64,000 bases of DNA. Origin: an uncultured Coriobacteriaceae bacterium (GTDB lineage: Bacteria; Actinomycetota; Coriobacteriia; Coriobacteriales; Coriobacteriaceae). How positions within the stretch are numbered: the stretch's first letter is position 1; the number at the start of each line of letters is the position of its first letter. The stretch is from the NCBI GenBank assembly GCA_944320725.1, contig CALUIM010000002.1, forward strand, positions 124,001-188,000, given 5' to 3'. The translations under genes and the position numbers were made by a program. Under the pieces are notes generated by a model. That model did no database searches. It was not told the origin of the DNA and worked only from the letters and a program-made list of their open reading frames with translations. Positions 40,837 to 47,174 of the stretch are shown here, in pieces.

Positions 40837-42870
40837 ATGCGCAAGTTTAAGACAGAGAGCAAGAAGCTGCTCGACCTCATGATCAACTCGATCTACACCA
40901 ACAAGGAGATCTTCCTGCGTGAGCTCATCTCCAACGCCTCGGACGCCGTCGACAAGCTCAACTTCAAGAGCCTTACCGACGATTCCATTCACGTCGAGCA
41001 AGGTGACCTTGCGATTCGTCTTGCGTTCGATAAGGATGCCCGCACCATCACCGTTTCCGACAACGGTATCGGCATGACCGAAGCCGAGCTCGAGAAGAAT
41101 CTCGGCACCATCGCGCACTCCGGCAGCGAGGAGTTTAAGGAGCAGAACGCCGAGAGCCAGGGCGACGCCGTGGATATCATCGGCCAGTTTGGCGTGGGCT
41201 TTTACTCCGCCTTCATGGTTGCCTCGAAGGTGCGCGTGGTGAGCCGCGCCTATGGCGAAGACGAGGCGCACGTGTGGGAGTCGGACGGTCTTGAGGGCTA
41301 TGCCATCGAGCCGGCTGAGCGCGCCGATCACGGCACCGATGTCATCCTGACGCTGCGCGAGAACGTACCGGGCAAGGACGGCGAGGAAGGCGAGAACTAC
41401 GACCGCTACCTCTCCGAGTGGGGGCTCAAAGACCTCGTGAAGCGCTACAGCAACTACGTGCGCTATCCCATTCAGATGATGGTGACCAAGAGTCGCGAGA
41501 AGCCCAAGCCCGAGGATGCCGGCGACGACTACAAGCCCGAGTACGAGAGCTACGAGGAGCTCGAGACCATCAACTCCATGACGCCCATCTGGAAGAAGCG
41601 TTCCGGTGATGTCGAGCAGAGCGACTACAACGAGTTCTACAAGAGCACCTTCCATGATTTCGAGGATCCGGCGCGCACCATTTCGTTCCATGCCGAGGGT
41701 ACGCTGGAGTACGACGCGCTGCTGTTCATTCCCGGGCGCGCGCCGTTCGATCTTTACAGCAAAGACTATGAGAAGGGCCTGGCGCTCTACAGCTCCAACG
41801 TCATGATTATGGAGAAGTGCGCCGATCTGCTGCCTGACTACTACAACTTCGTCCGCGGTGTGGTGGATTCCGCCGATGTCTCGCTCAACATCTCCCGTGA
41901 GACCCTGCAGCACGACCGTCAGCTCAAAGCCATCGCGCGCCGCGTGGAGAAGCGCGTCACGAGCGATCTTGAGGATATGCGCGACAACGATCGCGAAGCG
42001 TACGAGACGTTCTTCGAGAACTTTGGCCGCGGACTCAAGTACGGCATCTATGCGAGCTATGGCATGAAGGCGGCCGAGCTTGCCGACCTGCTGCTGTTCT
42101 GGAGTGCCAGGGAGCAGAAGATGGTCACGCTTGCCGAGTATGCCAAGGCAATGCCCGAGGGCCAGAAGGCTATCTACTACGCCGCCGGCGACTCCCGCGA
42201 GCGCCTCGCCAAGATGCCCGTGGTGACCGGCGTGCTCTCACGTGGCTATGACGTGCTTTTGCTCACGCAGGACGTAGACGAGTTCACGTTCCAGGCGATG
42301 CGCGAGTACGTGGCGCGCGACATGCCCAAGATCTACGAGGATGATGCTGCCCGCGAGGCAGCGGCGAAAGCCGTTGCCGATGGCGCCGAGCCCGAGCTTG
42401 AGGATCGCCATCTGGAGCTCAAGAACGTGGCGACCGGCGACCTTGACCTGGCAACCGAGGACGAGAAGAAGCAGGCCGAGGAGGCCACGAAGGAGCACGG
42501 TGACCTCTTCGCGGCCATGAAGGAGGCGCTCGGCGACAAGGTCGAGAAGGTTGCGGTATCGTCGCGCCTTGTTGGGGCCGAGGAGTCGCCTGCGTGCATC
42601 ACCACCGAGGGCCCGCTGTCGCTGGAGATGGAGAAGGTCTTGCAGCGCGGCCCCGAGGGCGATGTCGAGGGCATGCCCAAGTCGCAGCGTGTGCTCGAGC
42701 TCAACGCCCAGCATCCCGTGTTCGAGAAGCTGAGTGCCGCGCAGCAGGATGGCGATAGCGAGAAGGTGGCGCTGTACGCCGGCTTGCTGTACGACCAGGC
42801 ACTGCTGGTCGAGGGCATCCTGCCCGAGGATCCCGTGGCGTTTGCCCAGCGCGTCTGCGAGCTCATGTAG
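40837..42870 (+). CDS. htpG: Hsp90-family chaperone HtpG
   Basis: 677-aa cytosolic ATP-dependent chaperone. GHKL ATPase domain: LRELISNASDAVDKL, VSDNGIGMTEAEL, and IGQFGVGFYSAFMV; a middle domain with the catalytic NISRETLQHDR loop; then a dimerisation domain. The length is slightly above the E. coli protein (624 aa), with acidic linkers near residues 230 and 540. GGGAAGGACC precedes ATG 40837. A single-gene unit with its own promoter and terminator. Confidence 0.97.
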   Translation: MRKFKTESKKLLDLMINSIYTNKEIFLRELISNASDAVDKLNFKSLTDDSIHVEQGDLAIRLAFDKDARTITVSDNGIGMTEAELEKNLGTIAHSGSEEFKEQNAESQGDAVDIIGQFGVGFYSAFMVASKVRVVSRAYGEDEAHVWESDGLEGYAIEPAERADHGTDVILTLRENVPGKDGEEGENYDRYLSEWGLKDLVKRYSNYVRYPIQMMVTKSREKPKPEDAGDDYKPEYESYEELETINSMTPIWKKRSGDVEQSDYNEFYKSTFHDFEDPARTISFHAEGTLEYDALLFIPGRAPFDLYSKDYEKGLALYSSNVMIMEKCADLLPDYYNFVRGVVDSADVSLNISRETLQHDRQLKAIARRVEKRVTSDLEDMRDNDREAYETFFENFGRGLKYGIYASYGMKAAELADLLLFWSAREQKMVTLAEYAKAMPEGQKAIYYAAGDSRERLAKMPVVTGVLSRGYDVLLLTQDVDEFTFQAMREYVARDMPKIYEDDAAREAAAKAVADGAEPELEDRHLELKNVATGDLDLATEDEKKQAEEATKEHGDLFAAMKEALGDKVEKVAVSSRLVGAEESPACITTEGPLSLEMEKVLQRGPEGDVEGMPKSQRVLELNAQHPVFEKLSAAQQDGDSEKVALYAGLLYDQALLVEGILPEDPVAFAQRVCELM

Positions 42871-44154: not shown

Positions 44155-45168
44155 CTATGATGCCGGGATGATGAGATCGCCTGTGATGTAGTCGTAGATG
44201 TCCCAGGTGGCAAGGTCCATGCGGTACCAGCCCAAGGTGGCAATATGGTCGGGGTGATTCTCGAACACGTGGATGATGATCTCCTCGTCGGTGCGGCTGT
44301 CAACGATCGCACCGGTGCCCGCCGGGGTGAGTCCGGCGGCGGCGAGCTGATCAAACATGTACGTAGCAGGGTCAAGCGTTGGTTCGGCTGGTGCAGCGGT
44401 GTTTGTAGAGGAGCTTGTGCCCGATGTGCCTGCGGTGCTGCTCAGGTACACAACTGAAGTCAGGTGGTATCCAAAGATGCTTGCAGCGTCGGGCGTGCCG
44501 CTCACACGGTAGGTATACGTTACGGGATTGGAGATGCCATCGATATAGGTTACCTGCGCGTCGCAGGTAACGGTGCTGCCCGCAGCGACCCACGATGAGG
44601 TTGAGATGGAGCGCGAGAGCCCGCCATCCGCCTGCATGATGGTCCAGCCGTCACCGTTGTAGCTGGCGCCGTTCATGGTGATCGAGCGTACATCGCTTGG
44701 GCACGAGCCGTAGAAGGATGAGAGAATCGTCTGTCCCACGTCGAGCGAAATCTCATAGGGGCCGCTGTTGGGAATGGCATAGTCAAGGCCATATGAGGGT
44801 GTGTTCCAGGAGAGGTTCGCGCGATCGGGGTAGATGCTTGGGTAGATGATGTCGTAGATGAGCTTGGCATCTGCTTCGGCATTCGCGCCGGGTGCGCGCA
44901 GCATTTCACCGGACGGTTGCGCACCCGTGGTCGAGGGCGTGCCCGAGACGATATAGATAAGCGCCATGTCTTCAAACGCCGTTTGCGCGCTTCCCGTGGG
45001 AACGGCGGCTGAGGACTCCTCGGCAGGCTCAGGGTCGGTGTCCGTGACGATGGTGGTCGAGGAGTCGGAAGAGGATGAGCAGCCAACAAGGGCATAAGCG
45101 ACGCATATAAGCAGCAGGACGAAGATGGCGAGACTAGGCGTGCTGGTGATCCGTTTCTGTGCAGCCAT
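44155..45168 (-). CDS. Predicted lipoprotein of unknown function
   Basis: 337 aa. N-terminal hydrophobic stretch and lipobox LVGC (Cys near residue 30) followed by a Ser/Thr/Glu-rich spacer, so it is lipid-anchored on the outer face. The body has two beta-rich parts separated by a Thr/Ser/Ala linker near residues 245-265; the C-terminal part (FENHPDHIATLGWYRMDLAT, then WDIYDYITGDLI) resembles small exported domains that end in a D-x-T-G strand. ATG 45168 follows AGGGGGTTCACC and overlaps the NUDIX-Vsr gene by 35 bases, so both are probably co-transcribed. Function unknown. Confidence 0.75.
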   Translation of the reverse strand: MAAQKRITSTPSLAIFVLLLICVAYALVGCSSSSDSSTTIVTDTDPEPAEESSAAVPTGSAQTAFEDMALIYIVSGTPSTTGAQPSGEMLRAPGANAEADAKLIYDIIYPSIYPDRANLSWNTPSYGLDYAIPNSGPYEISLDVGQTILSSFYGSCPSDVRSITMNGASYNGDGWTIMQADGGLSRSISTSSWVAAGSTVTCDAQVTYIDGISNPVTYTYRVSGTPDAASIFGYHLTSVVYLSSTAGTSGTSSSTNTAAPAEPTLDPATYMFDQLAAAGLTPAGTGAIVDSRTDEEIIIHVFENHPDHIATLGWYRMDLATWDIYDYITGDLIIPAS

Positions 45169-46024
45169 GGTGAACCCCCTGTGTGCGATGCGGCGCAGCG
45201 GCGCGGACCGTCTCGATGACGCGGTCCATCGTCTCGTCGATCGTATCGCGTTTGAGTTCGCACTCCCAGATGGTAATCGGTGTCCAGCCGGCCTGCTGCA
45301 GATCAGCGGTAGCGCGCGCATCGCGCTCCACGTTGCGGCGGAACTTCGCCTCCCAAAACTCGGTGTTACGCTTGGGCACCGAGGGCTTGCATTTTGGACA
45401 ACGATGCCAGAAACATCCATTGACAAAGATGGCGATCTTGCGACCGGGGAAGGCAATGTCGGGCCTGCCCGGGACTTTCTTCCATTGCAGGCGGTACCCG
45501 GTGAGACCAGCCGCGCGCAGGCGCTGGCGAACCAGCAGCTCGGGTTTGGTGTCAGCGCGTTTGTTGCCCTGCATGGAGCGACGGCTGTCGCGGCGACGCT
45601 TCACGAGTTTTGCCTCGGCTTCACGGTCATGTGCCGCGGCGAGGGCGCGGATGAGGTCGCGGTCGGCCGGCATCCAGGTGAGTTCGGCGAGACTGCGTCG
45701 CGATATCCAGCGGATGTCGAGTTGGCGGTCGGAGCGTGTGGGCTCGCCTGATGCGATGTCGCATAAAAAGCATTCCATCGAGAGATGGAATTCGGGGTAA
45801 TCGTACTCAACGGTATAGAAGTCGCGGAGGTTGCATACGCGCACGTCGAGCTCCTCGGCAAGCTCGCGCCGGCAGGCATCGGCAGGGGTCTCCCCGCGTT
45901 CCACCTTGCCGCCGGGGAACTCCCAGAGCCCTTTCATGTCGCCATACCCGCGCTTCACGGCGAGTACGTTGTCGCTGTCATCACCAGCGCACACGATACC
46001 TGCTGCAACGCGAACCGTTTTCAT
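45134..46024 (-). CDS. NUDIX (MutT-like) - Vsr endonuclease fusion
   Basis: 296-aa two-domain protein. Residues 1-130 are a MutT-type NUDIX hydrolase: G39-x5-E45-x7-R53-E54-L-x-E57-E58-L-x-V, preceded by GLWEFPGG as in 8-oxo-dGTPases. Residues 145-278 are a very-short-patch repair endonuclease: TKPE (E162), PGRPDIAF (catalytic D189), NGCFWHRCPKC (H207) and IWEC, with Cys204, H207, Cys209 and Cys255 equivalent to the zinc ligands of E. coli Vsr. Vsr nicks T:G mismatches from 5-methylcytosine deamination; no cytosine methylase is nearby. GAAGGGACAGC precedes the ATG. The fusion would join pool cleansing and mismatch repair in one chain. Confidence 0.85.
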   Translation of the reverse strand: MKTVRVAAGIVCAGDDSDNVLAVKRGYGDMKGLWEFPGGKVERGETPADACRRELAEELDVRVCNLRDFYTVEYDYPEFHLSMECFLCDIASGEPTRSDRQLDIRWISRRSLAELTWMPADRDLIRALAAAHDREAEAKLVKRRRDSRRSMQGNKRADTKPELLVRQRLRAAGLTGYRLQWKKVPGRPDIAFPGRKIAIFVNGCFWHRCPKCKPSVPKRNTEFWEAKFRRNVERDARATADLQQAGWTPITIWECELKRDTIDETMDRVIETVRAAAPHRTQGVHHGCTETDHQHA

Positions 46025-46145: not shown

Positions 46146-46304
46146 ATGGTCAAGAACAACCCATACGACAACATTCGCGAACAAGATCAGCGCAATCCCA
46201 TCGTGCGCGCCGGCATGTCGGTCGTCGAGATGATTGCGTGGCTCGTGGTGATGGCGGTGCTCGCCATCGGCATGATCTGGCTTCTCTGGAGCGCATCGCG
46301 CTAG
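46146..46304 (+). CDS. 52-aa single-pass membrane protein
   Basis: Small gene with a very good ribosome site (AGGAGGTGTCGATC) and ATG 46146. Residues 1-22 are polar (MVKNNPYDNIREQDQRNP), residues 27-48 a membrane helix (MIAWLVVMAVLAIGMIWLLW). It is 39 bases before the ABC transporter ATPase gene and may be its small partner. Not recognised as a known family. Confidence 0.6.
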   Translation: MVKNNPYDNIREQDQRNPIVRAGMSVVEMIAWLVVMAVLAIGMIWLLWSASR

Positions 46305-46343
46305 GGCAATATCATGGTGAGCAAACAAGGAGAGGATACGAAC

Positions 46344-47174
46344 ATGGTGGTACAAAGCCAAAGCTCCGCGACGGCGGGAGCGCATATGAAGACCGCAGGC
46401 GCGAACGGCGCGCCCGTGCTGGAGGTGCGCCATATCGAGAAGGTGTACGGCACGCGCAACAACGCAACGCATGCGCTGCGCGATGTTTCCTTCACGGTGG
46501 AGGAGGGCGACTTCATTGGCATCATGGGTGCGTCGGGTTCGGGCAAGTCGACCTTGCTCAACTGCATCTCGACCATCGATGCGGTGACGAGCGGTACCGT
46601 GCTGGTGCACGGCACCGATGTGACGCGTCTCAAGGCAAAGAAGCTCGCACGGTTTCGCCGCGAGCAGCTGGGGTTCATCTTCCAGGATTCAAATCTGCTC
46701 GATACGCTTACGGTCCGCGAGAACATCGCGCTTCCTCTCACCATCAGCCGCGTGCCGGCACACGACGTGCTCATTCGCGTTGAAGAGGTGGCGCGCCGTC
46801 TGGGCATTGCCGAGACGCTTGAGAAGTATCCCTACCAGCTCTCGGGCGGCCAGCAGCAGCGCGTTGCTGCCGCGCGTGCGCTCGTGACCGATCCGGCGAT
46901 TATCATGGCCGACGAGCCCACCGGTGCGCTCGATTCCAAAAACGCGCGCCTTTTGCTCGAGAGCCTCGAGACCATGAATGAGCGCTACCGCGCCACGGTG
47001 CTCATGGTCACGCACGACAGCTTTGCCGCGAGCTACACGCATCGTGTGCTCTTCATTCGCGATGGACGTATCTTCACCGAGCTTCGTCGTGGGGATGCAC
47101 CGCGCCAGGCGTTCTTCGAGCGCATCATGGAAGTCGTGGCGATGATGGGCGGTGACGGCAGCGATGCTCTGTAA
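46344..47174 (+). CDS. Bce/MacB-type ABC transporter ATP-binding protein
   Basis: 276-aa ATPase. Walker [11 protein letters not shown]-loop [21 protein letters not shown] (the family hallmark), signature [15 protein letters not shown], Walker [14 protein letters not shown]. Works with the FtsX-like permease next to it, whose start overlaps its end. Such pairs remove or sense peptide antibiotics that bind lipid II. ATG 46344 (AAGGAGAGGATACGAAC ahead) was preferred to ATG 46314. Confidence 0.9.

Follow-up and report, generated by a model that had tools for sequence, protein, structure and literature searches.

A NUDIX–Vsr fusion conserved in the Collinsella family is a candidate mutation-avoidance enzyme

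We describe a gene in which a NUDIX hydrolase domain and a Vsr endonuclease domain are joined in one chain, and we favor, with moderate confidence, the view that, in the Collinsella family, this chromosomal housekeeping gene encodes an enzyme of mutation avoidance. Judging from the sequence, the NUDIX half probably clears faulty DNA building blocks, and the Vsr half probably cuts at T:G mismatches. The protein is a variant of these two known families. The gene lies in a window of 64,000 nucleotides (G000:C2:124001-188000), the whole stretch of DNA analyzed here, from a 2.07 Mb genome that is 99.46% complete. By similarity, its close relatives among named records are Collinsella.

Results

The fused gene (45134..46024, minus strand) starts with ATG and encodes 296 residues followed by a stop codon. 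The original prediction had placed both domains in one uninterrupted frame, without stating the strand, and had proposed a Pfam search as a check. Such a search of the protein matched NUDIX (PF00293, 1.4e-19) and Vsr (PF03852, 1.6e-19) within this single frame, and the NCBIfam Vsr model matched as well. On the same strand, the MutT/NudG-like NUDIX domain occupies residues 1-130 (45635..46024) with its NUDIX box at residues 39-61 (GKVERGETPADACRRELAEELDV; 45842..45910), followed by a linker (residues 131-145; 45590..45634) and the Vsr domain (residues 146-272; 45209..45589). In an AlphaFold model of the fusion (pLDDT 93, pTM 0.67), the individual domains are modelled well and their placement relative to each other is not. 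Across the family the linker ranges from 12 to 120 residues and is frequently basic (Lys/Arg-rich); because its length is so variable, no fixed contact between the NUDIX and Vsr domains is implied.

The fusion is not limited to one assembly. Our sample of the order consisted of 199 genomes, each at least 90% complete, 60 of which belong to the family. NUDIX and Vsr share an open frame in 55 of these 60 genomes (as one match in 20, and in 35 as two neighboring matches within a frame of the same length), which rules out a frame or assembly error that joined two genes. All nine genomes of the genus contain the gene. Vsr is unfused in all four genomes of one genus of the family (g6). A single sampled family genome, G163 (1.7 Mb), which has a C5-methylase, lacks any Vsr; this natural loss could be used for a comparison of mutation spectra. 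In trees built from few columns, the fused NUDIX domains of the family formed one clade (support 99) nearest to standalone NUDIX proteins of Coriobacteriales, and the fused Vsr domains formed one clade (support 96) nearest to Vsr of Eggerthellaceae. These placements suggest that the family probably gained the fusion once, out of parts that it already had, and that a fusion found in Bacteroidales (see below) is separate.

The surroundings of the gene are also conserved. An ABC transporter/FtsX pair adjoins it in most relatives with enough flanking sequence; in the window, the transporter ATPase lies at 46314..47174 (plus strand). Between the two is a divergent gene for a one-helix membrane protein of 52 residues (46146..46304, plus strand), which is found beside the fused gene in relatives across the family (48-69% identical). 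On its other side, the fused gene of the window has Hsp90 (htpG; 40837..42870, plus strand), as do several to many of the relatives. A lipoprotein gene (44155..45168, minus strand) had been noted as an odd partner that overlaps the end of the fused gene. The overlap, of ~35 nt, is real; the partnership is not conserved, since this lipoprotein gene was not found next to the fused gene in relatives. The overlap is created by a C-terminal extension (residues 281-296; 45137..45184, minus strand) that is modelled with low confidence and is missing from the nearest relative, whose fused frame ends earlier. We therefore regard the overlap as a local accident of this lineage and rule out the lipoprotein as a functional partner.

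Searches for the fused gene on plasmids and phages gave no match covering at least 80% of the query length. A 900-kb Collinsella aerofaciens record named "plasmid 6" (NZ_OY725717.1, L218) contains the fused gene together with the ABC transporter genes that normally adjoin it, and is probably a mislabelled piece of chromosome. In the annotated record that we looked at, the whole fused protein is labelled just "DNA mismatch endonuclease Vsr", so the annotation hides the fusion. We found no publication on a NUDIX–Vsr fusion in the open-access literature.

Vsr has other fusion partners in the order. A DNA-deoxyinosine glycosylase (TIGR04274, above cut-off), Vsr and GIY-YIG form a triple fusion in Ellagibacter (L031:5239-6837, plus strand) and in a relative, G117 (L219:768-2555, plus strand), and the Ellagibacter protein recurs in G177 (L228:1431-3029, minus strand); a single protein may here hold a complete module for base repair. 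An HhH-GPD/AlkA-like glycosylase is fused to Vsr in another family of Coriobacteriales (G101; L220:1140-2366, plus strand). The repair logic is not obvious for a GNAT acetyltransferase–Vsr fusion (G145; L225:1603-2856, minus strand) or for a fusion of Vsr to an aminoacyl-tRNA editing domain (G114; L226:1002-2081, minus strand). Outside the order, in Bacteroidales, NUDIX domains of the same subfamily are fused to Vsr (L024), encoded directly before it (L029, L186, L190) or encoded after it (L073, L092, L199). By our own count, ~6 of 25 Vsr loci in Bacteroidaceae have a NUDIX gene of this subfamily within ~1.6 kb, much more often than chance would give in a 3-Mb genome. A different NUDIX gene overlaps Vsr in a restriction island of Victivallales (L086).

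These pairings bear on the idea that a single event in the family ancestor joined two useful housekeeping enzymes, which have been co-inherited ever since without being coupled; this idea is compatible with the domain functions that we favor. We consider such a neutral fusion a serious minority possibility. It would fit the single origin in the family, the variable linker and the persistence of a standalone NUDIX paralog in the same genome (L012). Moreover, Vsr fusions may be partly promiscuous, given that Vsr is joined to GNAT and tRNA-editing domains as well. A neutral history accounts less readily for the independent fusion and repeated adjacency of NUDIX and Vsr in Bacteroidales, in both gene orders, or for the finding that three of the five types of Vsr fusion in the order have a nucleotide-pool or base-repair enzyme as the partner.

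We then considered the two domains separately. The fusion protein scored 70.9 bits against PF00293 (cut-off 21.1) and thus belongs to the NUDIX hydrolases. An intact NUDIX box had been predicted, and its catalytic residues (G39, E45, R53, E54, E57 and E58) indeed showed no variation in 37/37 fused relatives; Asp60 stands where the textbook box has its last Gly. The scores fell below the equivalog cut-offs both for MutT 8-oxo-dGTP diphosphatase (TIGR00586, 86.4 versus 97.9) and for NudG pyrimidine dNTP diphosphatase (NF007834, 58.6 versus 156), and at the sequence level the domain is closer to E. coli MutT (33% identity, 70 bits) than to NudG (28%, 49 bits). In E. coli MutT, Asn119 is the residue that reads 8-oxoguanine; the same column holds Asp121 in the fusion, and NudG likewise has Asp. 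Owing to this Asp and to the score below the MutT cut-off, a specific 8-oxo-dGTPase activity of the domain is not established. Structure matches were obtained to 3r03 (Z 19.8), to MutT with 8-oxo-dGMP (3a6t, Z 18.8) and to MutT2 with 5-methyl-dCTP (5zro, Z 18.4).

The Vsr domain scored above the cut-offs of TIGR00632 (115.5 versus 97.85 bits) and PF03852 (69.9 versus 27), which places it in the Vsr family, and it matched the Vsr–DNA complex 1cw0 (Z 16.7, rmsd 2.3 over 125 residues). The predicted intact core, with its catalytic Asp and zinc ligands, was confirmed: E162, D189, H207 and D235 (E. coli E25, D51, H69 and D97) are kept, as are the Cys residues at zinc positions (C204, C209, C212 and C255). 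Asp189 (45458..45460, minus strand) did not vary among the 39 fused and 94 standalone Vsr rows compared. Residues that wedge into or contact the T:G pair are likewise kept (wedge M151, F205 and W206; contacts K227 and N231). The segment 200-212 (FVNGCFWHRCPKC; 45389..45427, minus strand) holds zinc Cys residues, the FW of the wedge, the catalytic His207, and Asn202, which replaces His64 of the E. coli enzyme. Residue roles in the E. coli enzyme were taken in part from a study in which position 64 is Asp in the relaxed-specificity Neisseria Vsr and in Caulobacter VsrA (PMC12907096). One such enzyme, V.NgoAXIII, is reported to act on T:G in all sequence contexts (PMC6116569), a precedent for context-free T:G nicking. 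Given these precedents and the replacement of His64, relaxed sequence specificity of the Vsr domain in the fusion is plausible by analogy. As a separate observation, the zinc loop of Vsr proteins of Bacteroidales is interrupted, always at the same point, by low-complexity insertions that vary (L024:6580-6621; same place in L029, L073 and L092), and that of L024 contains a 21-nt in-frame tandem repeat.

The original prediction also held that no cytosine methylase is nearby, and suggested a genome search for Dcm-type methylases. The statement extends to the whole genome: a PF00145 (C5-methylase) profile gave 0 candidates in the genome of the window, and likewise 0 in its nearest relative (G005). 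Between these two methylase-free genomes, dN/dS was 0.054 for the NUDIX domain and 0.048 for the Vsr domain; both are under strong purifying selection. Vsr occurs without any C5-methylase in 20/59 Vsr-bearing genomes of the family, a third of them and including that of the window, which supports the earlier proposal that the target may be other than the Dcm product; across the order the figure is 50/161. The list of Vsr-minus genomes was finished by subtraction. No conserved repair-gene neighborhood was found around standalone Vsr, whose neighbors are mixed.

We next weighed the possibility that the fusion is a broad-spectrum guard against 5-methylcytosine damage. Here, a multispecific Vsr would mend the deamination products of transient restriction C5-methylases and the NUDIX domain would hydrolyze recycled 5-methyl-dCTP, with no general role in mismatch repair; we judge this possible but rather unlikely. 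In the order as a whole, Vsr and C5-methylases co-occur above chance (odds ratio 7.2, Fisher 6e-7, phylogeny ignored), mostly in family f5, and both the match to M. smegmatis MutT2 with bound 5-methyl-dCTP and the NudG-like Asp at the base-reading position would suit such a guard. NUDIX, Vsr and C5-methylase genes also lie close together in L029 (Bacteroidales) and L086 (Victivallales), and Caulobacter Vsr is associated with an unlinked solitary methylase (PMC12907096). Nevertheless, the third of family genomes with Vsr and no C5-methylase, and the dN/dS of ~0.05 between two of them, are not what a guard of this kind predicts. In Caulobacter, Vsr deprived of its methylase triggers SOS, which is the reverse of being stably retained. 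Furthermore, a C5-methylase rarely adjoins Vsr in the order (0/21 loci with ~5 kb or more of flank; 2/112 neighbor ORFs), whereas by our own count one lies next to Vsr at ~11 of 18 loci from outside the order.

Profile searches in the order, in which positive controls were detected, found MutS_I in 0/40 and MutL in 0/40 genomes. Nine weak NucS matches in relatives covered at most 55 of 124 positions, with two of them barely above the cut-off; we do not regard these partial matches as genuine NucS. Our results agree with a report that all analyzed Coriobacteriia lack NucS and MutS-MutL (PMC5290159). Of the components of Dcm–Vsr VSP repair, the cognate C5-methylase is missing here, as are MutL and MutS. 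Vsr itself is present in 161/199 genomes of the order, in single copy in 160, versus 50/221 other Actinomycetota.

It is possible, though in our view unlikely, that Vsr replaces mismatch repair in Coriobacteriales. In an extended form of this idea, which we likewise think unlikely, a domesticated, context-free Vsr would be the core of a third, nick-based pathway of T:G mismatch correction in an order without MutS, MutL or NucS, reinforced by family-specific fusions to MutT-like, deoxyinosine-glycosylase/GIY-YIG or AlkA-like partners. Against such a replacement stand the 38/199 genomes of the order without Vsr, so that Vsr is not indispensable there, and the correlation of Vsr with C5-methylases. 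In addition, the template strand would not be told apart from the new one. Vsr always cuts the T strand, hence errors with T as the template base would be made permanent instead of being repaired.

Another alternative, which we regard as improbable, is that the NUDIX domain is not an enzyme but a reader of lesions that steers Vsr to damaged bases, in the manner of the C-terminal domain of MutY. The domain also matches PF14815 NUDIX_4 (3.2e-17, Pfam), which we take to be the MutY-type model, and basic linkers would be in keeping with this role. The reader domain of MutY is not known to have a catalytic NUDIX box, however, whereas the full box is present in every fused relative compared, and the closest structures are those of hydrolases. 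The other function originally proposed, that of an anti-phage nuclease controlled by a nucleotide signal that the NUDIX domain would sense, is very improbable despite matches to the PADLOC models Vsr (6e-21) and PDC-S07 (6.5e-38), because the gene is a fixed, single-copy, near-universal chromosomal locus of the family and PDC-S07 is unspecific, matching E. coli MutT and NudG alike. The PDC-S07 model (PDLC04899) scores these two proteins at 131 and 147 bits, respectively, so genes called as PDC-S07 may be housekeeping NUDIX genes of the ordinary kind.

Discussion

The combined anti-mutation enzyme raised in the original prediction is, from the sequence comparisons, the reading that fits best. 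We favor it on the grounds that the active sites are kept by selection, that MutS, MutL and genuine NucS are all missing from the order, and that related families join Vsr to other repair enzymes. In this mutation-avoidance enzyme, the N-terminal MutT/NudG-like domain would hydrolyze mutagenic or modified dNTPs (8-oxo-dGTP, or derivatives of dCTP, for instance 5-methyl- or 5-hydroxy-dCTP), and the C-terminal Vsr domain would nick DNA 5' of the T at T:G mismatches in a relaxed sequence context, after which polymerase and ligase would bring back C:G. The flexible, often basic linker would keep both activities on the product of one single-copy gene, and the two would serve one shared pathway.

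One close comparison is with E. coli Vsr (V.EcoKDcm, 1cw0/1vsr), with which the fusion shares the fold, the catalytic Asp/His/Glu, a Cys zinc site, the FW+M wedge and the K/N contacts to T:G. By contrast, the fusion has an N-terminal NUDIX domain and no dcm partner, its host cell offers neither MutL nor MutS to work with, and His64, Thr63 and the zinc ligand His71 are replaced by Asn202, Val201 and Cys209, respectively. V.NgoAXIII, the multispecific Neisseria Vsr (PMC6116569), also has a residue other than His at position 64 (Asp, as against Asn in the fusion; PMC12907096), but is a standalone protein from a genome with several C5-methylases and MutS/MutL. The NUDIX half shares the hydrolase fold and box with E. 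coli MutT/NudG and M. smegmatis MutT2, and the Asp at the base-reading position with NudG; unlike MutT and NudG, whose equivalog cut-offs it does not reach, it is joined to a nuclease. MutY, a glycosylase with a C-terminal NUDIX-like reader, is a precedent for a NUDIX domain and a DNA-repair enzyme in one chain, although its domain order is reversed, its enzyme is a glycosylase and not a nuclease, and its reader is not known to be catalytic. NucS cuts both strands, whereas Vsr nicks one. NucS/EndoMS of Actinomycetes resembles the fusion, whose Vsr activity is predicted, as a mismatch-acting nuclease in bacteria without MutS/MutL; it belongs to another family and is absent in Coriobacteriia (PMC5290159).

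The retention of Vsr by selection in genomes without a cytosine methylase runs counter to the usual view of Vsr as the servant of Dcm. In open-access papers we found no answer to how Coriobacteriia, which are common gut bacteria, control mutation without known mismatch repair; the NUDIX–Vsr fusion offers one concrete, testable candidate.
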